From positions 1 through 26,496 of the IMG/VR virus record IMGVR_UViG_3300028920_000242: 26,496 nt of DNA; one strand, 5' to 3'. The position numbers were made by a program, and so were the translations under genes. Of the stretch, positions 814 to 26,496 are shown piece by piece. The notes below the pieces were generated by a model. It ran no database searches, was not told where the DNA came from, and was given only the letters and a program-made list of their open reading frames with translations. The stretch comes from a virus. The number at the start of each line of letters is the position of its first letter. Position 1 is the stretch's first letter.

Positions 814-987
814 TTACCCGTTGGTCGCCAGGATGGCGTCGAGGTAGAGGCCCGCCCCGGCGGCGGTCAGCCCCACCGGCCAGCCGAGCCAGAAACCCAG
901 CCCCACGGCCAGTGCGGCCAGGCCGATCAACTGGATTAGGCCGGCTGCGCGGCGGGGATCGATGCCTGCTGCCACAAATCGCTCCAT
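814..987 (-). CDS. Small two-helix membrane protein ahead of portal
   Basis: A 57-residue protein starting MERFVAAGIDPRR, with two adjacent hydrophobic stretches (about residues 15-34 and 36-50) broken by the WPVG turn. It overlaps the 3' end of the nucleotidyltransferase/kinase fusion by about 50 nt and ends 4 nt before the portal start, so it looks translationally coupled to both. Very small hydrophobic genes next to portal genes occur in other siphophages, usually without a known role. The size and helix hairpin would also suit a holin-like function. The function is not known from sequence; the gene call rests on composition, fit between neighbours and tight spacing. Confidence 0.65.
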   Translation of the reverse strand: MERFVAAGIDPRRAAGLIQLIGLAALAVGLGFWLGWPVGLTAAGAGLYLDAILATNG

Positions 988-2069
988 CGCTCGTAGGGCT
1001 CGATCGCCACGGCCTCGGGCGAGCTGGCCACGAATTCGTCCCGGTCCTCGGGGTGGGCGAACAGGTAGAGGCCGTAGCCGCCCCAGCCCGCGCCGCAGTA
1101 CTTGCAGGCGAGCTCGCGTATGCTTGGTCGCAACGGGTCCATGCCCTCGGCGATCTGCGCCCGGTGCGAGAGGACGACGGCCTGGCTCAGCCGCTTCAGG
1201 TCTTCCCGGATCACCGCCTCGCGGGCGACGTCGCCCGCCCGGCGGATGGTGCCGTAGTCCCGATCGCGGCGCGTGAGGCCCGCGGTGACGTGTCGCTGCC
1301 CCGTCCACTCGATCGCCATGAGCCCCCGCAGCCAGCTCCCGGGCGTCTTGGTTTCCAGAGAGGGCATCAGCCCGGACCGCCAGACGCACAGGCCGGTTTC
1401 GCGGATCACCGCGGCGTCTTGCCAGCCGACGCCCTGCTCGATCTCGGCGTGGATTCCGTTGATGCCGTCTCGCATCGCGGCGGCGGCCGAGCCGCCGAGG
1501 CCCGACCCGTGCGGCCAGGCTCGCTCGTCGATGCCCGGGCGAACGGCGCAGTTCACCACGAAGGCGCCGCACTGGGCGAGGTCGGGGACGTCCAGCCAGC
1601 CGCCGGCGAAGTCCACCCGCATCGGGATCGTCACCCAGCCCCGGATACGGCGGCGGATCTCTGACACGGAGATCTTCGGATACTCCAGACCCTTCGGTAG
1701 GACGACGTAGCGGGCGCCGAACTCCGCACAGAGGTCCCGCTTCGCCTGGGCGTAACGGTCGTCCTCCGTGACGGCGAGGATGTCCGGGCGACGCGCCTTG
1801 AAGGCCTCGGCGAAGTCCAGGCCGGGCTCCGTCGGATGGCAGCTTGAGATCACCACCTCGTCGACGCAATCGAGGGCGGCCAGGACGTGGGCCTTGTGCT
1901 CGGCGGGCATGGCCGGCGGGCGGCCCTTGTGGCGCATCAGGGCCTCGTCGGAGGCCACCGACACCGTCAGCCAGTCGCCCAGGCTCTTCGCCTGGCGAAG
2001 GAAGTGCACGTGCCCGCCGTGCAGGACGTCGAAGCAGCCGCTCACAAAAACCTTGCTCACCTTGCTCAT
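936..2069 (-). CDS. Bifunctional sugar nucleotidyltransferase / GHMP sugar kinase fusion
   Basis: A 377-residue fusion. Residues 5-142 form a cytidylyltransferase-like domain: FDVLHGGH (13-20) holds the HxGH nucleotide-binding motif, and ISVSEIRRRI (133-142) is the C-terminal phosphate-binding motif, as in HldE/RfaE C-terminal and glycerol-3-phosphate cytidylyltransferases. From about residue 148 a GHMP kinase follows: RVDFAGGWLDVP (151-162) as in fucokinase and HddA, the ATP loop HGSGLGGSAAAA (187-198), and motif 3 CGAGWGGYGLYLF (325-337). Together they could phosphorylate a sugar and activate it as a nucleotide sugar in the cytoplasm; the sugar cannot be read from sequence. About 25 residues separate GHMP motifs 1 and 2, where cellular relatives have many more, so the kinase lobe is compacted. 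The start overlaps the terminase stop (TGATG), indicating coupled translation. This is a highly unusual cargo inside a packaging module. Confidence 0.88.
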   Translation of the reverse strand: MSKVSKVFVSGCFDVLHGGHVHFLRQAKSLGDWLTVSVASDEALMRHKGRPPAMPAEHKAHVLAALDCVDEVVISSCHPTEPGLDFAEAFKARRPDILAVTEDDRYAQAKRDLCAEFGARYVVLPKGLEYPKISVSEIRRRIRGWVTIPMRVDFAGGWLDVPDLAQCGAFVVNCAVRPGIDERAWPHGSGLGGSAAAAMRDGINGIHAEIEQGVGWQDAAVIRETGLCVWRSGLMPSLETKTPGSWLRGLMAIEWTGQRHVTAGLTRRDRDYGTIRRAGDVAREAVIREDLKRLSQAVVLSHRAQIAEGMDPLRPSIRELACKYCGAGWGGYGLYLFAHPEDRDEFVASSPEAVAIEPYERWSDLWQQASIPAAQPA

Positions 2070-5481: not shown

Positions 5482-6170
5482 CTCAGTTGGGTGTAGTGGT
5501 GCATGAAGACGGGAATGCTCGTCGGCATCGGCACGTCGGCCAACACATCACCCATCATGATGTAGTCCAGATACATCGTCGCATAGAAGGCGTCCGGGTT
5601 GGAGAACCCGGCCCAGAGCGCGTTGAGCGACATGGCGCTTCCGCCGTGCCCCGAATCCACCGCCTGACAGACCTGCGCCCCGTCCATGTAGACCGTCGCC
5701 GTAGCGGCCGATGCGCCTGCGACGTAGGTGATCTGGACCCAATACCAGGTGTCTATGGCAATCGGCGTGGACGACCACGAGAACCCCGTCCAACTCCCGT
5801 CGTCGCCCCTGCATCGGACGCCAAATTGAAGGTCGCTGCCGCTCTTGCGGATGTCAACGTGAACGCGCCCCGATGTCCCCTGGAGCATGTAGAACGCCCG
5901 CACATCCTCGCCATCGTCCCAGCCGATCCCTCCGTCGAGCCGGAACCACATCCCGACGGCCATCGTGTTTGTGAAGCTGTAGTCCGTCTGCTTGGCGTAG
6001 GCGTCGTCGTCGCTCGATCCGGCCACATCGCAGGCGAGATAGTACGTCCCCTCGATGCGCACCCCGACCGCAGACCCAACGGCCACAGAGCCGCCGTTGT
6101 TGGCAACTTGTGACGACCAGCCATCGGGCCAGGAACCCGTCTCGTGGTCTATGGTCGCGCGGAGCGCCAT
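5472..6170 (-). CDS. LamG/concanavalin A-like lectin protein, probable receptor-binding component
   Basis: A 232-residue protein with a single jelly-roll lectin fold pattern: FTNTMAVGMWFRLDGG, then FYMLQGTSGRVHVDIRKSG, DTWYWVQITYVAGAS and TATVYMDGAQVCQ, ending with a beta strand MYLDYIMMGD. This is the usual LamG/laminin G order (a 'W.H..V.Y.....ATVYVDG' core followed by 'LDDI..G'). There is no signal peptide. In phages such domains often sit in fibres or tips that bind glycans. A good ribosome-binding site (GGGAGG, 6 nt from the ATG) supports the start, which lies 22 nt inside the PEP-CTERM gene end. It could also be a carbohydrate-binding capsid ornament. Confidence 0.75.
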   Translation of the reverse strand: MALRATIDHETGSWPDGWSSQVANNGGSVAVGSAVGVRIEGTYYLACDVAGSSDDDAYAKQTDYSFTNTMAVGMWFRLDGGIGWDDGEDVRAFYMLQGTSGRVHVDIRKSGSDLQFGVRCRGDDGSWTGFSWSSTPIAIDTWYWVQITYVAGASAATATVYMDGAQVCQAVDSGHGGSAMSLNALWAGFSNPDAFYATMYLDYIMMGDVLADVPMPTSIPVFMHHYTQLRCA

Positions 6171-6811
6171 CTAGGCCTCCCCAAGAACACCAACCCGCCC
6201 AGCAGCAGCATCGCCGTCGCCGGTTCGGGAATCGGGCGGGGGTCGGTGTCGTACAGCCAGTAGTTGCCCACGTCGGCCTCGATTTCGGCTTCGGCCGGGG
6301 AATGAAAGAGCTTGGCGTCCTCGCCACGAACCATCAGGCCATGCAGCCAGTAAATTCCCGCCGGGACAACGCCTTCGTAATAGATGTTGTCGTCGTTGGA
6401 GTTATCCTCGGGCGTGGGGTCGGCCTCAACATGAGGCGCCCAGGTCAGATCGGCATAGAGAACGTGCCCGCAGACGTACTTCGTCCCGCCGATCCACTGC
6501 ACCATCTCCGGGCCACGATCTGCCCACGGGTTCAGGTCGGCGTAGCCGAAGACGTTTACCGGGTTGTCGCCCGTCCACGTCGGTTTGAAGCGGATGCCGG
6601 TGAGGTCCGTAGCGCCACGGCGGTTGTCGATGACGCCCAGCATGGCGACGTACTTGACCCCGTTCGGGTCGCGGAGGGTGTTGCCGTCGCGGTCCAGTTC
6701 GGCGGCGTCGATGTAGTCGTTCTCCCGTCCGGCCGGCAGAGTCGCCGCCAAGCTGCTCGCCGTCACCGCAAGCAGCACCAGCCCCGTCAGCCCTTTGATG
6801 CTCGTTCTCAT
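6149..6811 (-). CDS. PEP-CTERM secreted protein, phage-encoded exosortase substrate
   Basis: A 220-residue protein with an N-terminal signal peptide (charged MRTSIKG, hydrophobic LTGLVLLAVTASSLA, likely cleavage after SLAA). The C-terminal sorting tail is textbook: PIPEPATAMLLLGGLVFLG followed by an Arg cluster (RPRWRSARP), which is PEP box, transmembrane helix, basic end. Cellular exosortases recognise such tails, cut near the PEP box and release or anchor the protein at the envelope, usually in bacteria that make exopolysaccharide. The middle domain (about 30-190) is not recognised; it is acidic and rich in Asp, Tyr and Trp. The ribosome-binding site AAAGGAG lies 7 nt before the ATG. It is the first gene of the late operon, next to the lectin gene. 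No exosortase gene is present, so a host enzyme would be needed. Confidence 0.85.
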   Translation of the reverse strand: MRTSIKGLTGLVLLAVTASSLAATLPAGRENDYIDAAELDRDGNTLRDPNGVKYVAMLGVIDNRRGATDLTGIRFKPTWTGDNPVNVFGYADLNPWADRGPEMVQWIGGTKYVCGHVLYADLTWAPHVEADPTPEDNSNDDNIYYEGVVPAGIYWLHGLMVRGEDAKLFHSPAEAEIEADVGNYWLYDTDPRPIPEPATAMLLLGGLVFLGRPRWRSARP

Positions 6812-6880: not shown

Positions 6881-7171
6881 TCAGACCTGGCCGATGATCT
6901 GGTCGGGTCCGAGGCGGTCCATCTCCAGCGGCGGCATGGCCACGGATGCGGCCTGGGATGCGGGCCTGGCAGGCAGCGGCAGGCCGCTGGCCCGCAGGTT
7001 CGCCCGACCCCGAGCCAGCAGGCCGTTGGCCGAAGACGGGCAGATGCCCATCCGCGAGGCGATCTCCCGCTGGGACAGCCCATCGTGATGATGCCATGCC
7101 AGGGCGATGAGCTGCCTCGCGGTGAGCCGCTTGGCGGCCCCGGAGACGATTCGCAGCCGCAGCCGCGACAT
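6881..7171 (-). CDS. Sigma-70 region 4-like HTH protein, candidate late regulator
   Basis: A 96-residue protein starting MSRLRLRIVSGAA. Residues about 15-65 match the region 4 pattern of sigma-70 factors: LTARQLIALAWHHHDGLSQ, then REIASRMGICPSSANGLLAR with a helix-turn-helix, then RANLRASG. No region 2 is present, so it is more likely a transcription activator or sigma-appropriation factor than a full sigma factor. I chose the ATG at 7171, preceded by AGAGGGG, over the TTG at 7243. The next gene downstream is the first late gene, preceded by an extended -10-like site, so late-operon control is a natural hypothesis. Function is inferred from motif and position. Confidence 0.72.
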   Translation of the reverse strand: MSRLRLRIVSGAAKRLTARQLIALAWHHHDGLSQREIASRMGICPSSANGLLARGRANLRASGLPLPARPASQAASVAMPPLEMDRLGPDQIIGQV

Positions 7172-7212
7172 AGCCCCTCTGTAAGACGGCTCCGTGCGCT
7201 CGCGCCTATGCG

Positions 7213-7335
7213 TCAAGTCGTGCTCCTGTCGGTTATTAGGCAATCAGTCATGGCCGCATCCTTTGTTGCCCCCGCGAACAGGGGGCCGCTGATGCGGCGG
7301 TTGGCCTCCCCGCATATGATCCGGCTCGCCGTCAT
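7213..7335 (-). CDS. Tiny hypothetical protein (40 residues)
   Basis: The ATG overlaps the stop of the upstream coiled-coil gene (ATGA) and has GGGGAG 8 nt before it. The product begins MTASRIICGEANRR and ends at a TGA at 7213. No family is recognised, and the case rests on spacing and ribosome-binding site alone. It may be only a leader for the sigma-like gene that starts 41 nt after its stop. Confidence 0.3.
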   Translation of the reverse strand: MTASRIICGEANRRISGPLFAGATKDAAMTDCLITDRSTT

Positions 7336-19662: not shown

Positions 19663-20241
19663 TTATCGGTAGTCCCGGATGCCTTCGACGGCCAGCAGGC
19701 TTCGCACGCCCATGGGCAGAACGCTGGCCGCCTGGCCCACAAGGGTCGCCTCGCGGTGCTCGTAGAGGTGGCCGACGGCCAGGAGGATCGCCTGGCGGTC
19801 CGTCGCGGGGACGTCCGCCGCCTCGTCGCCGTAGCCGGCGACGTAGATGATTTCGACGTCGTTGACCTCGCCGTAGGTGCTCGGCCACGTCTGTTGGTAG
19901 GCCAGGCTGACCGCGCCGGGCTCGGCCGCCGTGTCGACGTAGTAGGTCGCCGCCGCGAGCGTCTGCTGGGCGTTGTTGCCGTCCTGGTACTTGATCGACG
20001 TCACCGACTGCAGCGGCGGACGGGGCAAATAGAGCTTGCCGGTCCAGAACCCGTCGCGATACATCGTCCAGGTCTGCTCGATGAACGCCCGGCCGGCGAG
20101 CTGCTCGCACTGCTGGCGGGCGGCGGTGATCAGCCGGTCGACCAGGTCGTCCTCGTCGTAGCTGTCGAGGCGCAGATGCAGCTTCGCCTCGGCCCGGGTG
20201 ACGGGCTCCGTCGCGGCGTCGGTTGTGCGGGACAGTTTCAT
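19663..20241 (-). CDS. Head-tail connector (gp6-like)
   Basis: A 192-residue protein: VTRAEAKLHLRLDSYDEDDL, then RLITAARQQCEQLAGRAFIE and QTWTMYRDGFW, matching HK97 gp6-like and phage_connect proteins ('s..eaKahLRld...eDd.l..lI.aAr.~~e..tgRali'). It forms the ring under the portal. The ATG at 20241 shares a base with the upstream stop (TGATG); a GTG one codon earlier is also in frame. Confidence 0.92.
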   Translation of the reverse strand: MKLSRTTDAATEPVTRAEAKLHLRLDSYDEDDLVDRLITAARQQCEQLAGRAFIEQTWTMYRDGFWTGKLYLPRPPLQSVTSIKYQDGNNAQQTLAAATYYVDTAAEPGAVSLAYQQTWPSTYGEVNDVEIIYVAGYGDEAADVPATDRQAILLAVGHLYEHREATLVGQAASVLPMGVRSLLAVEGIRDYR

Positions 20242-20501
20242 CACGTCGTCTTGCGGCGGCCCGCCTGCCGCTTCCGGGGCTTGCCGACCGGTCGGGCCGC
20301 CTGCTCGGCCGACGGCTCGGCCGTGGTCGTTTCGACGGCCGGGGCCTGCTCGGGTGCGGGCTGGGGCCGCTTGCCGTCGTCGGCCGCCTCCGCGACGCCC
20401 CGACCGATCAGGTCGCGGCCGAAGCTCTCTTGCCCGGGCTTGAGGGTCAGCAGGTGACCCGTCGGGTAGCCTGCATAGTTCGCGAGGAAGCGTATCTTCA
20501 T
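20241..20501 (-). CDS. Small head-associated protein, unknown
   Basis: An 86-residue protein. The N-terminus MKIRFLANYAGYPTGHLLTL, followed by 'GRDLIGRGVAEAAD', matches small proteins often found between capsid and connector genes ('mkvr.l..~~gy..Gdvv.lp...A..Li.rG.a'). A Pro/Ala/Glu/Thr-rich tail and a basic end RKRQAGRRKTT follow. AGGAGA lies 5 nt before the ATG. The role is not known. Confidence 0.75.
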   Translation of the reverse strand: MKIRFLANYAGYPTGHLLTLKPGQESFGRDLIGRGVAEAADDGKRPQPAPEQAPAVETTTAEPSAEQAARPVGKPRKRQAGRRKTT

Positions 20502-20528: not shown

Positions 20529-21818
20529 CTACTGCCAGGCGTCCTTGGGTTTACCGTTCTCCCAGAAGTCTTTGGGCGTCTGCCAGACGGCCTTCGCCTC
20601 CGGACCCGGCCGGCCCGGCCATCCGATCATCAGCTCGGCGTGGCCGATCACCACGCGGGGGGCCAGGTAGAGGGTGTTGCCGAGCTTATGCCACCACCGC
20701 CAGAACCAGATGTCGTCATCGACCCGCCCCTCGTCCCAGCGGCCGTCGGGGCCCGGGCGGCTGTGAAACCACGGCTTCTTCATCGCCTTGAGCTTCTCCG
20801 TCCGGATCAGCGTCAGGCCGAAGTGCGCCGTCGTCACCTGTAGAAGCTCCTGCTGCAACTCCTCCATGGCGACCTTGTCGCGGTTCTTCCCGTCGTCGCC
20901 CTGGATGGTCATCATCGGATAGGGCGTGTGACGGTGGATCTGGACCGGGGCCAGGGCATCGATCTCCGGGTGAGCGGCGAACAGCTCGCAAAGCCGGCGG
21001 ACGTCGTCCACGGTGAAGACGCTGTCGTAGTCGAGCGTCAGGATCGCCCCGGCACCCTCCTCGACCGTCTGCTCCATGCCACGCTCGAGGCATTGCCCCC
21101 AGAACGCCCCAGAAACCTTCTTGAGCCCGATCTTCAGCGGAAGAAAGGCCTGGAAGGCCGCGAAGAAGTTGTCCTGGAAGCCCAGCCGCGGAATGCTCAT
21201 CACCGCCGAGACATGCAGATCATCGCGCGGCCCGTAGGTGGTCGGCTTCGGGGCCGAGGCCGGCTGGACCACTGGAAACGCCGGCTGGCCGTGCATGCTC
21301 ATCGGCTTGCGGCCCTGGAGGTTCAGGCTGATCGGCAGGCTCGCACAGTCGCCGACCTCCGTGGTCCACGGCTCGATCTGCTCGAGCCCCGCCGCCTCCA
21401 GGAGGCCGCGGAGCTTCTGCTCGTTGAAGATCGATCGGTGGAAGTCGTCCTCGTCGCCCTGGCCGCCCATCAGCCACGCCTCGATCGGATCGTCGTGCCC
21501 TGGCTCATGGTATCGCTTGACGATCGCGGTGAAGTTTGGCACGGCGATCCGCAGCAGCCCGCCCGGCTCGAGCGCCCGGATCCAGTCACAGAGGATCTCG
21601 GGCGTCCGCTGGTGGCTGAAATGCTCCAGCAGGTGGCTGGCGCGGATCTCGGCCACCGAATCGTCGGGGTACTTTAGCGGCACCGCCTCGCCGCCTCGCC
21701 GGTGATCCACGGCCACGTAGCCGGGGATGTGCGAGATCCCCGACCCGAGATTCAGCTTCAGAGGTTTTGCGGCGCTGTCGTCGCCGTCCGCGCGTAGCCC
21801 AACCTTTCCATCGCCCAT
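20529..21818 (-). CDS. Methyltransferase-glycosyltransferase fusion
   Basis: A 429-residue protein with two domains. Residues ~20-165 form a SAM-dependent methyltransferase of the class 11 type: LNLGSGISHIPGYVAVDHR (22-40), EIRASHLLEHF (57-67) and LEPGGLLRIAVPNF (83-96). Residues ~195-429 look like a GT-A-type glycosyltransferase: SAVMSIPRLGF, LTLDYDSVFT (260-269; DxD-type D263/D265), and later VDDDIWFWRWWH with IGHAELMIGWPG. The ATG at 21818 is chosen for GGGAGA 7 nt upstream; the frame is open further upstream. It overlaps the sulfotransferase end by 61 nt. It could add and methylate a sugar on a capsid, decoration or surface glycan, but acceptor and donor are unknown. Confidence 0.85.
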   Translation of the reverse strand: MGDGKVGLRADGDDSAAKPLKLNLGSGISHIPGYVAVDHRRGGEAVPLKYPDDSVAEIRASHLLEHFSHQRTPEILCDWIRALEPGGLLRIAVPNFTAIVKRYHEPGHDDPIEAWLMGGQGDEDDFHRSIFNEQKLRGLLEAAGLEQIEPWTTEVGDCASLPISLNLQGRKPMSMHGQPAFPVVQPASAPKPTTYGPRDDLHVSAVMSIPRLGFQDNFFAAFQAFLPLKIGLKKVSGAFWGQCLERGMEQTVEEGAGAILTLDYDSVFTVDDVRRLCELFAAHPEIDALAPVQIHRHTPYPMMTIQGDDGKNRDKVAMEELQQELLQVTTAHFGLTLIRTEKLKAMKKPWFHSRPGPDGRWDEGRVDDDIWFWRWWHKLGNTLYLAPRVVIGHAELMIGWPGRPGPEAKAVWQTPKDFWENGKPKDAWQ

Positions 21819-22423
21819 CCATGTATCTCCCAAAAGCGTGCCTCGTCCTCGGCACTCATTTCGTGCCGCCACGTCCCGATCCGCCCTTTGCGGAAGATCT
21901 TCGGGACCAGACGGCGGAAGCGATCGAAGTCGTTGCGCCAGTCCGTGCGGACGGGCGGCCCCAGTGTCTTTGCCATCTCACCGATCGCCCAGCCGGGCCG
22001 CTCGAGCAAGTCCTCGTAGCGTACAAGCAGCGTATTCGGCCGGCCGCCCGGCCAGGGCGCCCAGCGGGCGACGTGTTCCGCCCACCGCTGCCAGCTCGGC
22101 AGACCGTCGATCACGTAGCGGACGGGCCGGTTGTACATCGCCGCCATCGAGCAGCAGGCGTCCCGACCGTCCCGGACCACGTAGATCGCGGGACGGTCGT
22201 CGCCCTCGATCGGCCACCGGTGGGTCTTGACCACGGCGCCAGGCAGATGGAACCGCATCGTGATGCCGGGCACCGGCGGGTTGACGTAGGCCCTCCGGTT
22301 GGGCAGCAGCCCGTCCAGCATCGGCTCGTTGTAGATCGACGGGCAGTCGCGGTCCCAGCAATGCTGGATGATGAGCCGCGCGAGGGTGTTGCCGCTCCGC
22401 GGCCAACTTGCCAGCCAGATCAC
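21758..22423 (-). CDS. PAPS-dependent sulfotransferase
   Basis: A 221-residue enzyme with the core motifs of sulfotransferases: WPRSGNT (7-13, the 5'-phosphosulfate loop), VKTHRW (65-70, catalytic His region), YVVRDGRDACCS (81-92, 3'-phosphate binding), VRYEDLLERP and RKGRIGTWRHEM (178-189). It would transfer sulfate from PAPS to a hydroxyl on an acceptor in the cytoplasm. It starts at GTG (22423), 2 nt after the decoration-type gene, and is followed by the methyltransferase-glycosyltransferase fusion. No sulfotransferase is expected in a head-morphogenesis module. The acceptor cannot be read from sequence. Confidence 0.88.
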   Translation of the reverse strand: MIWLASWPRSGNTLARLIIQHCWDRDCPSIYNEPMLDGLLPNRRAYVNPPVPGITMRFHLPGAVVKTHRWPIEGDDRPAIYVVRDGRDACCSMAAMYNRPVRYVIDGLPSWQRWAEHVARWAPWPGGRPNTLLVRYEDLLERPGWAIGEMAKTLGPPVRTDWRNDFDRFRRLVPKIFRKGRIGTWRHEMSAEDEARFWEIHGWAMERLGYARTATTAPQNL

Positions 22424-22425
22424 GG

Positions 22426-22857
22426 CTACAGGTTCACCAGGGCCTTGACGCCTGCGATCGTGGTGTTGATCGCGCCCTCGTCGCCTCGGAAGAGGTTGGC
22501 GATCGCGACGATGCCCTGCGTGGTGAGCGGGGTGACCACGACGCGGAGGTACCGCTTCCGCCCGCGGCAGTCGACGTTGAACTTCACCCCGTAGTTGCCC
22601 TCGGTGAGGGCGGCCGGGACGTCGAAGTCCGTGTCACCCACCGCGCCGGAGATGTCGGCGAAGCTGGTGGCGACGGTCGTGTCGCACTCCTGCAGCTTGA
22701 GCGTGCTGGGGTTGTTGGTGGCATCGTCCGAGGTCGTCATCACGACGTCGATCGTCGCGAAGTCGAAGCCGAGAGTATCGATGTTGCCGGTCGCGGTCTC
22801 GCCGTTGGTGACCTCGATGTCGTTGATCGCGACCACTTGCTTTCCGTAAGGAACCAT
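22426..22857 (-). CDS. Probable head decoration or capsid-associated protein
   Basis: A 143-residue protein beginning MVPYGKQVVAINDIEVTNGE with a repeated beta-strand layout (TIDVVMTTSDDATNNPSTLK, DVPAALTEGNYGVKFNVDCR) and a short C-terminal helix (AIANLFRGDEGAINTTIAG). It directly follows the capsid gene in order, where decoration or stabilisation proteins are normally encoded. A long intergenic region with hairpins separates the two. It would be a natural surface-exposed target for the sugar-modifying genes that follow; this is an inference. Confidence 0.65.
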   Translation of the reverse strand: MVPYGKQVVAINDIEVTNGETATGNIDTLGFDFATIDVVMTTSDDATNNPSTLKLQECDTTVATSFADISGAVGDTDFDVPAALTEGNYGVKFNVDCRGRKRYLRVVVTPLTTQGIVAIANLFRGDEGAINTTIAGVKALVNL

Positions 22858-23151: not shown

Positions 23152-24501
23152 TCAGGAGGTATTGCCGCGGAGGCCGACCAGCGGGCCGGCCGTCGAGGCG
23201 TCGCCGAGGTCGTGGACGTTGATGTCCATCCGCTCCGTCATCTGCACGCCGATCTGGTCGTACTCGAGGTACCGATCCGTGCTGGTACGGAGCGTGATGC
23301 CCCGCCGATCGCCGAGATCGGCCGCCTGCCGCATGTTGCCGAAGGCGATCATCACGAGCTCGTTGTACGCGCTCGTCGCGGACGGCATCGCCGCCGACAG
23401 CTTGATCGGGTAGCCGAGCAACTGCGGCGTCATGCCGTCGGCGATGTTCTGCATCGCATTGCCGGACAGGGCGCTCAGCAGCCGCAGGACGCAGGAGCCG
23501 TAGGCGTAGTACGACATGTACCACTTGGCGTTGAAGTGGGCGTAGCCGGGCAGCTTGCCCACCAGCGAAATGATGTCCGGCAGCAGCAGCTCGGTGAACT
23601 GATCGTCGCCGGCCGTCGCGTCGGCGTAGCTGGCGGCGTGATTGCCGTCCACCATCTTCGCCCGGAATCCCACGATTCCGTGGTAGGTCGACGTGCCGTC
23701 ACCGTCGATCAGGCACTCGTCCTCTTTCTTCACGGCCGCCCAGGCCATCTCATCGGCCAGGTCGTCGGCCATGTTGATGATGGCGTCGTCGGCGAGATCG
23801 GTGCTCATCCGGGTCAACGCCCCCCACTTGCGGGCGACGAGCTCGACGTTCGACCAGCTCTTGTCGGAGGCCGTGATCTCCGTGTTCTCGCCGATGGCGT
23901 ACATCGTGATCCCGCCCGCTCGCCTGGGCACCAGGAGGTTGTCCGAGCCCATGGGTCGGATCCGGCACTCCTGCCGGGCGAGGCCGTACTCCTCGCGCAA
24001 GTCGATAATGGCCGACTCGAGCTCGACGGGCACCACGTAGCCGCCTGCCGCGTTCTTACCGGTCGTCATCACCCGCAGCTCGATGTTGTTCTCACGGCAC
24101 CAGTCGCGGGCCTGCTGGTTGCCGAGAATGGCCGCCCGGAACCACTGGCCGGCACGGTAGGCGTCCTCATCGGCACGCGCCCCCTTGAAGGCGCGGAGCC
24201 GACTGTAGCGGAACCGCTGCGGTCGCCGCTCCTGGCGGCTGCCGTCCGTCCGACTGATCCAGTCCGGGTCGGAGGGCACGGATCGCCCGGACGTTCCGTC
24301 CATCAGGCCCTTGGCGTCTTCGAGCTGCTGACGCCGGCTGATCTCGTCCGTCAACGTCTTGAACTCGGTCATCAGCTCTGCGTAGCGGTTGGCCTCGTCG
24401 TCGTCCAGGCGACGACTTTCCTCATCGGCCTTGGCGTACAGCTCGTTGGCCGCCTGGTAGGCGGCCAGTCGACGAGCCCTCAATTCCTCGATCGTGGTCA
24501 T
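23152..24501 (-). CDS. Major capsid protein (HK97 fold)
   Basis: A 449-residue protein. The N-terminal ~100 residues form a charged coiled coil (MTTIEELRARRLAAYQAANE and on), the delta/scaffold-like domain that HK97 proteases cut. The core begins near TTGKNAAGGYVVPVELESAI and includes MGSDNLLVPRRAGG, WSNVELVARKWGALTRMSTD and LIDGDGTSTYHGIVG (P-domain and E-loop-type segments), then LLGYPIKLSAAMPS near the C-terminus. It assembles as the icosahedral shell. The ATG at 24501 starts the coiled coil cleanly; the frame is open 32 codons further. The upstream protease gene and the downstream decoration-type gene fit the order. Confidence 0.93.
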   Translation of the reverse strand: MTTIEELRARRLAAYQAANELYAKADEESRRLDDDEANRYAELMTEFKTLTDEISRRQQLEDAKGLMDGTSGRSVPSDPDWISRTDGSRQERRPQRFRYSRLRAFKGARADEDAYRAGQWFRAAILGNQQARDWCRENNIELRVMTTGKNAAGGYVVPVELESAIIDLREEYGLARQECRIRPMGSDNLLVPRRAGGITMYAIGENTEITASDKSWSNVELVARKWGALTRMSTDLADDAIINMADDLADEMAWAAVKKEDECLIDGDGTSTYHGIVGFRAKMVDGNHAASYADATAGDDQFTELLLPDIISLVGKLPGYAHFNAKWYMSYYAYGSCVLRLLSALSGNAMQNIADGMTPQLLGYPIKLSAAMPSATSAYNELVMIAFGNMRQAADLGDRRGITLRTSTDRYLEYDQIGVQMTERMDINVHDLGDASTAGPLVGLRGNTS

Positions 24502-24637
24502 TTCTTTCACCCGTGAACTGTCGCGACCCGTGCCTCCGTCGCCGAACAACGGCTCAGCGGCGGCGAGTTCGCCTGGTTGTGTGGAAGCTCTGCTCACCAG
24601 CCGACGACGGCCGAGCGGCGAGCGTCGTTGTGCGTGC

Positions 24638-25473: not shown

Positions 25474-26496
25474 TTATCGGTGCGCAAGCAGGCATGCAGG
25501 CGCCCGCGCCACCTCGGCCACGGTGTTCATCACGTGATCGGCGAGTTGAGCGGGACGCGAGAGCTGCCATTCGGCCAGGACCCGCTCGGGCTGGGGCCCG
25601 TCGGCCAGGGCTCGCCGCGCGGCGTTCGCCTCGTGGATCGCCAGTTGGGCCATCGCGGCCACCACCGCCGCCCGGGTCTCGGCCGCCCGCAGACCGATGG
25701 CCTCGGCGTAGGCCCTCGCCGCCGGGGTCAGCACCTCGGCCACGTGCGCGGCGTGGTTGCCGTTGCCGTAGAACCGCTCGACCGCCTTGCAAAAGTCCTG
25801 CCGCTTCGCGGCGGTTCGCATGGCGTTGATCTCTTTGGTAACGATGCGGCGGGCAAGCTCGACGAGCAGCTCCCGGTGGGCCCGGCCGTCCGGTTTGTCG
25901 GCAGGGCTGTCGGACGTATCGTCGTCATCGTCCTCGTCCGGGTCCGGCGGCCCTGGCGGCAAGGCGGTCGGCCGGTCGGCCGGGGCCATGTTCACCGGCA
26001 CCCAGTACCGATCGCCCCCGGCAATCGGGTTGAGATTCTCTTTCTCGCGAATCTCGTTGGCCGACAGGACACCCAGGTTCCACAGCTCGCGGTAGAACTG
26101 CCCGCGGGCCCGGCTGTCGCCCCGCAGCAGCCCTTCGACGAGGAACTCGCCAAAGAAGTTCGTGCTCCATGGCCCGAACAGCTTCCGGTTGCATTCGAGC
26201 TCCCATCGGCGGAGCCAGGGCATCAGTGTGTGCCGCACGAAGTCGATCGACTGGTGCTCGATGTTCGAGAAGGTCGCCCGCTCCAGGTCGCCCAGCATGT
26301 GCGGCGGGATCTGGTAGATGCGGGCCACCTCGGTCACCTGGAACTTCCGCGTCTCCAGGAACTGGGCGTCGTCGGGCGGGATCCCGATCTGCTGCCAGGT
26401 CATCCCCTCTTCGAGGATGGCGATGCGGTGGGCGTTGTCGAGCCCCTTGTGCATCCGCTCCCAGCTCGCCCGGAGGTTGTCCCTCGCCTTCTCGTT
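25474..26496 (-). CDS. Portal protein (HK97 family), C-terminal part
   Basis: This is the rest of the portal gene that starts at 809. The first 149 bases duplicate 1-149, and the protein then continues to a TAA at 25474-25476. Conserved portal features include RKFQVTEVARIYQIPPHMLG, the following TFSNIEHQSIDFVRHTLMPW, and the clip/stem segment GVLSANEIREKENLNPI. After about residue 400 there is an acidic stretch (DPDEDDDDD), and then about 150 residues of Ala-rich helix not found in minimal portals. That extension could be a scaffold-like or core-binding domain, which is my inference. The prohead protease gene follows after 17 nt with its own strong ribosome-binding site. Confidence 0.93.
   Translation of the reverse strand, partial: NEKARDNLRASWERMHKGLDNAHRIAILEEGMTWQQIGIPPDDAQFLETRKFQVTEVARIYQIPPHMLGDLERATFSNIEHQSIDFVRHTLMPWLRRWELECNRKLFGPWSTNFFGEFLVEGLLRGDSRARGQFYRELWNLGVLSANEIREKENLNPIAGGDRYWVPVNMAPADRPTALPPGPPDPDEDDDDDTSDSPADKPDGRAHRELLVELARRIVTKEINAMRTAAKRQDFCKAVERFYGNGNHAAHVAEVLTPAARAYAEAIGLRAAETRAAVVAAMAQLAIHEANAARRALADGPQPERVLAEWQLSRPAQLADHVMNTVAEVARAPACLLAHR
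26348..26496. repeat. Terminal direct repeat, right copy (circular overlap)
   Basis: Second copy of bases 1-149, with one mismatch at 26370. Removing one copy gives a 26,347-bp circle in which the portal gene is intact. Confidence 0.95.

Follow-up and report, generated by a model that had tools for sequence, protein, structure and literature searches.

The window, by which we mean the whole 26,496-nt stretch of DNA analysed here, is an IMG/VR virus record (IMGVR_UViG_3300028920_000242) whose ends carry a direct repeat of 149 bp (positions 1–149 and 26348–26496, 99.3% identical). Because of this repeat at both record ends, it is the complete genome, ~26.35 kb in size, of a siphophage-like virus. 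The junction of the record ends falls inside the portal gene; a junction-spanning portal gene together with a terminal repeat indicates a complete genome that is either circularly permuted or terminally redundant. The late genes lie on the minus strand in the order TerS, TerL, NTK, portal, prohead protease, HK97-type capsid protein, decoration-like protein, sulfotransferase (ST), methyltransferase-glycosyltransferase fusion (MT-GT), sm86, gp6-like adaptor, head closure, neck, tail completion and tail tube, and a weakly matching tape-measure protein closes the run. Elsewhere on this strand, positions 6149–6811 encode a protein of 220 aa that opens with a signal-like stretch and ends in a PEP-CTERM-like C-terminus (Pfam PEP-CTERM 0.0017, just under the cut-off), a possible phage-encoded exosortase substrate. 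It adjoins a sigma-70 region 4-like gene (6881–7243, also minus strand), the 120-aa product of which contains a sigma-70 region 4 domain (PF08281, 1.6e-6) and is a possible phage regulator.

Enzyme genes among the head genes

A preliminary description, made from the sequence alone, had reported a sulfotransferase gene and a methyltransferase-glycosyltransferase gene with overlapping starts, flanked on the same strand by a decoration-type gene and by the genes for head-tail connectors. Both ORFs were correctly placed on the minus strand: ST at 21758–22423 (221 aa, GTG start) and MT-GT at 20529–21872. Upstream lie the genes for a 143-aa decoration-type head protein (22426–22857; phrog_5707, 7e-12), our best candidate acceptor, and for the HK97-type major capsid protein (23152–24597; PF05065, 4e-35), an alternative acceptor. 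On the 3′ side of MT-GT, the gene for the small protein sm86 (20241–20501; phrog_2616, 1.8e-4) forms the far border of the insertion slot and separates MT-GT from the gp6-like head-tail adaptor (19663–20244; PF05135, 5e-7; phrog_442, 2e-30), with the head closure and neck genes beyond, and all of these neighbours share the minus strand. The overlaps need correction: the decoration and ST genes do not overlap, the decoration stop and the ST start reading TAG-cc-GTG with a 2-bp spacer. ST and MT-GT do overlap, likely by 61 bp and not by 115 bp, an ATG at 21818 (429 aa) being a more likely MT-GT start than the GTG at 21872 (447 aa).

ST is a predicted PAPS-dependent sulfotransferase of the SULT-like kind. 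All three PAPS motifs previously noted (WPRSGNT, VVRDGRD and GRIGTW) are present, as is a catalytic KTH motif (K66-T67-H68) that was missing from the earlier list; ST carries the 5′-PSB loop WPRSGNT, in which the loop Lys is replaced by Arg, the catalytic His, the 3′-PB pair R84/S92 and RKGRIGTW. The Pfam model Sulfotransfer_1 (PF00685) matches at 1.8e-9 and 37.8 bits, passing its gathering cut-off of 22. Among 15 ST relatives, W3, P8, G11, K66-T67-H68, R84 and R87 never vary and S92 hardly does. A profile of these relatives matched SULT1E1 at 1.6e-22 over profile positions 4–214, with the PAPS loop, the KTH and RKG motifs and the Arg/Ser pair in register, as against 4.7e-4 for TPST1. The predicted structure (pLDDT 83.7) has the SULT alpha/beta fold (Z 15.6, rmsd 3.2, 198 residues); the glycopeptide sulfotransferases Teg12 and StaL are near-top fold matches, and TPST1 follows at Z 13.9. 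The RKGxxGxW motif is lost from the ST relative of locus L002, and ST may be altered in some relatives.

A methyltransferase fused to a GT-A-like domain had also been proposed, and the predicted structure of MT-GT (pLDDT 84.8) bears this out, with a clear class I methyltransferase fold (MT) in the N-terminal part and a clear GT-A fold (GT) in the C-terminal part. Since the Pfam scores are under cut-off (Methyltransf_23 at 1.8e-5 and 25 bits, just under its cut-off of 27; Glyco_trans_2_3 at 0.0037 and 17.5 bits, cut-off 27), both assignments were made from profile alignments plus structure, and for GT we claim a fold, not a CAZy or Pfam family. PHROG 6636, a methyltransferase family, matches MT-GT at 9e-9. 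The MT domain contains LNLGSG as its glycine-rich motif I and resembles SAM methyltransferases at Z 13–14 (3cc8, Z 13.7; 3dli, Z 13.2). The best fold match of the GT domain is A197 of STIV (PDB 2c0n; Z 19.6, rmsd 2.2, 172 residues), followed by LH3 (Z 16.5), Mimivirus R699 and COLGALT1 (Z 14.9), of which LH3 and COLGALT1 are glycosyltransferases acting on a protein, collagen; A197 was absent from a sequence search with the MT-GT profile, and the tie between the two is thus by fold only. Twenty-six diverse MT-GT relatives keep DYD (263–265), GA[FY]WGQC, HxGxT, DxD..FW and GH. Neither ST nor MT-GT contains a transmembrane-like stretch, which is consistent with a cytoplasmic protein acceptor.

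In related phages, dN/dS is 0.06–0.17 for ST and MT-GT (leaving aside one near-identical pair with 7 differences), comparable to the capsid gene. This purifying selection indicates that both genes are maintained in those phages; for ST it was measured in relatives only, the window ST being without a close relative.

The NTK gene (936–2069, minus strand, 377 aa), situated between TerL and portal, encodes an HldE/RfaE-like nucleotidyltransferase joined to a GHMP-kinase-like domain, and was compared with the HldE/FKP-like sugar kinase-nucleotidyltransferases. Its nucleotidyltransferase domain matches CTP_transf_like at 6.7e-14 and rfaE_dom_II at 7e-20, the latter under its own cut-off, and the kinase part gives a weak GHMP_kinases_C match (0.047, under the cut-off).

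The cassette in related phages

Relatives of ST and MT-GT came to light through alignment-based searches; single-sequence searches of IMG/VR gave no match for ST and one locus for MT-GT. In a collection of 50,697 phage records, neither the ST nor the decoration protein of the window had a match, and MT-GT had none over its full length, which explains why the cassette has gone unseen until now. For the remote GT of locus L103, the only matches (20–26%) were hypothetical proteins of cyanophages and metagenomic phage records that lack annotation. With MT-GT relatives in at least 472 IMG/VR stretches, the predicted sugar-adding core is common to hundreds of unstudied phages, known almost entirely from metagenomes. 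Three of the nine loci found in MAGs were from Phycisphaerae or Phycisphaerales. In the phylum of the former, one of 392 genomes carried a match that extends as far as the GT domain, and in the phylum of a gammaproteobacterial MAG one of 398 did, both already known; stray viral contigs can end up in MAG bins, and from these data we assign no host.

An independent contig repeats the gene order with an ST relative 33% identical and an MT-GT relative 55% identical to those of the window. Recurrence of the order at such identities, together with purifying selection in relatives, puts the locus far beyond chance. In L002, a distant relative, the order is decoration-ST-MT-GT; its decoration-ST gap holds a dGTP_diPhyd_N protein.

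To describe the position of GT, we scanned loci with profiles, the fractions referring to the best 80 loci of each scan, to contigs that are in many cases fragmentary, and to profiles built from the same loci in which they were counted. Among 95 GT hits with sufficient sequence upstream, the nearest profiled gene upstream of GT was decoration in 69, ST in 16, gp6 in 6 (mostly second GT copies), NTK in 1 and none in 3; downstream it was mostly sm86 or gp6. GT is conserved alongside the structural genes. When the best 80 matches to the decoration protein alone were used, GT lay within 3.5 kb in each of the 57 loci whose downstream flank measures 2.5 kb or more; a capsid-protein scan found it in 36 of 49 loci, and never without decoration. 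In the remaining 13 loci decoration is followed by sm86/gp6, with sm86 the very next gene in most GT-less relatives; this indicates that GT is cargo in a fixed slot, and weakens the notion that decoration is always accompanied by GT. Two GT copies flank gp6 in L089, L090, L012 and L037.

The other components are more variable. The MT glycine-rich motif is lost and GT retained in one subgroup (L045, L055 and L071), and GT occurs alone, without MT, in 18 loci; GT is therefore the core of the cassette. As had been suggested for a neighbourhood search, sulfotransferase genes are found next to head genes: 22 of 30 ST relatives in IMG/VR stand directly behind the decoration gene, and 6 lie outside head regions. 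The next profiled gene downstream of the 22 is nearly always MT, GT or NTK, the exceptions being two where the contig stops first and one where gp6 comes next. On the decoration tree at least nine changes of state were counted for ST and at least eight for MT (170 GT-bearing sequences), compared to one for GT (all 179). Such repeated changes and the 22 decoration-adjacent genes indicate that ST has been gained or lost repeatedly in the same place and, judging from these gene patterns, MT-GT is the core and ST an optional extra. In L192, L086 and L087, ST relatives adjoin or lie within 3 kb of MT-GT or MT and the stretches hold no profiled head gene, perhaps representing a related cassette in other phage genomes.

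NTK probably acts as the sugar-nucleotide supplier of the same pathway, as suggested by the placement of its homologues; this link, like the division into core and optional parts, went unnoticed in the preliminary description. These occur within the head cassette in L084, L276, L278, L279, L281, L282 and L285, while L099 repeats the gene order of the window, with NTK likewise in the TerL-portal slot. An independent NTK scan returned 19 loci, six of which have it in the head region near the MT-GT cassette, at differing slots; repeated independent arrival in one region favours a shared pathway over inherited adjacency alone. Between decoration and gp6, L084 carries ST, NTK and MT-GT plus one further ORF that encodes a DxD-like motif; the product of this ORF (L084:8510–9307, between ST and NTK) has a DVDCE motif, lacks a Pfam match and is possibly a second glycosyltransferase. 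Between ST and MT-GT, L099:8784–9491 (CTP_transf_like, 3.4e-8) and L101:1549–2223 encode a second nucleotidyltransferase-like protein with an apparent MazG-like tail.

The acceptor and the proposed pathway

Taken together, the enzyme families with their intact motifs and folds, the purifying selection in relatives, the conserved place and the recurrent linkage make it reasonably probable that the genes between decoration and the head-tail connector form a virion-modification cassette that places a glycan on a head protein. This claim of virion glycan modification is stronger than any claim of family membership. The preliminary description had named virion proteins and surface glycans alike; the conserved location and linkage and the structural relatives of GT lend good support to modification of virion proteins at the time of capsid expression, and host surface glycans are less favoured.

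From adjacency, linkage and a change of loop, the acceptor is most probably the decoration protein. Because the genes of the head module are passed on together, a neighbouring position does not by itself make a protein the substrate. The decoration protein of the window contains an S/T-rich loop, MTTSDDATNNPST, and this loop is lost from GT-less decoration proteins (mean S/T 4.6 versus 1.56). The nine distinct GT-less sequences group in a single long-stemmed clade, and the loop difference thus counts as a single event. Loss of the S/T loop along with absence of GT is suggestive and points to decoration as acceptor.

We infer the enzyme activities, the order of reactions, the NTK product and the benefit as follows. 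NTK and/or the host would activate a sugar, which GT would pass in the cytoplasm to a newly made head protein, most probably decoration, during late head-gene expression. MT would then methylate the sugar or glycan, and the optional ST would add sulfate from host PAPS. The capsid surface would then bear a capped glycan with negative charge, and the likely benefit would be altered adsorption or shielding; the preliminary description had proposed adsorption, shielding against host defences and mimicry of sulfated glycans as possible benefits.

The same cassette could modify another virion protein, be it the major capsid, a connector or a tail protein, which we regard as somewhat unlikely. In mycobacteriophages it is capsid and tail-tube proteins that are glycosylated (PMC12363180), and capsid and connector genes are usually nearby in our loci too. 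However, decoration is the immediate upstream neighbour of GT in almost every locus, and where GT is missing the capsid type and connectors are retained, while the decoration protein is changed. A different target is proposed if the enzymes act on host surface glycans or LPS (serotype conversion or superinfection exclusion) and the head-gene place is merely a convenient site of expression. Methyltransferases of this type are common in surface-polysaccharide pathways, serotype conversion by phage GTs is known, and the bacterial proteins that match the MT-GT alignment cover only its methyltransferase part. This reading is nevertheless unlikely, given the recurrent fixed place behind the decoration gene and late expression, which would come too late to serve exclusion. 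Furthermore, the absence of transmembrane-like stretches from ST and MT-GT and the protein-acting fold relatives of GT, the closest GT folds being viral and protein glycosyltransferases, speak for a protein as acceptor more than for glycans of the envelope or on a lipid carrier.

ST might also act directly on a virion protein, sulfating tyrosine or some other residue independently of the MT-GT glycan. Its loop reads PRSG, with Arg in place of the SULT Lys, as TPST loops likewise do, and TPST1 is among its fold matches, but SULT-type and glycopeptide sulfotransferases match better, and MT, GT or NTK comes next downstream of nearly all decoration-adjacent ST genes, making direct sulfation quite improbable. 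Least credible of all is that the cassette is mobile cargo (a moron) serving some other purpose on host small-molecule substrates: while ST and NTK come and go and some ST relatives lie outside head regions, GT is nearly as stable as the structural genes, with one inferred change in 179 decoration rows. A role in DNA modification was also considered and set aside, as none of the window proteins scanned was recognised as a hydroxymethylase and MT is not of the DNA-MTase type.

Returning to a glycan on the decoration protein, we tentatively extend the reading to a large uncultured phage lineage that tailors this glycan with a core GT, to which modules for methylation, sulfation and sugar activation can be added or exchanged, all in one fixed slot; this fuller picture is possible and held with less confidence than virion modification as such. 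The fixed recurrent place of the genes suggests one specific acceptor, open to testing. Should the reading hold, phage capsids would bear a made-to-measure charged surface chemistry, including the first sulfated virion glycan known from any phage, and new glycan-modifying enzymes could be sought in the slot that follows decoration.

Comparison with known systems

Virion glycosylation is known in other viruses; for a phage head cassette that includes a sulfotransferase we found no published description in the open-access literature. In mycobacteriophages Che8, Corndog and Myrna a phage GT glycosylates capsid and tail tube proteins and antibody binding is altered (PMC12363180, PMC11256854). Unlike the genes described here, the GTs of one F1-cluster genome (Maravista) lie near its 3′ end and not behind a decoration gene, and the passages of the two reports considered here make no mention of a sulfotransferase.

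A single viral polypeptide joining glycosyltransferase and class I methyltransferase domains for a capsid glycan is found in PBCV-1, where A064R (GT-GT-methyltransferase) builds and methylates the Vp54 glycan (PMC9614988). Unlike MT-GT, A064R belongs to a eukaryotic giant virus, has three domains in the order GT-GT-MT and is encoded among early genes; the same chlorovirus review does not mention sulfotransferases. The fold of the window GT, with its DxD, is shared by STIV A197, which has been proposed to glycosylate the capsid protein, the major capsid protein B345 of that virus being glycosylated (PMC10551542, PMC4187194). A197 differs in belonging to an unrelated archaeal virus, in being a lone GT without MT or ST, and in its ~14% identity. 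Finally, ST shares with SULT1E1, Teg12 and StaL the fold (Z 14–15.6), the PAPS loop, KTH, the 3′-phosphate R/S pair and an RKGxxGxW-like motif; at ~20% identity it is shorter than these enzymes, has Arg for the loop Lys and, unlike them, is encoded among phage head genes.
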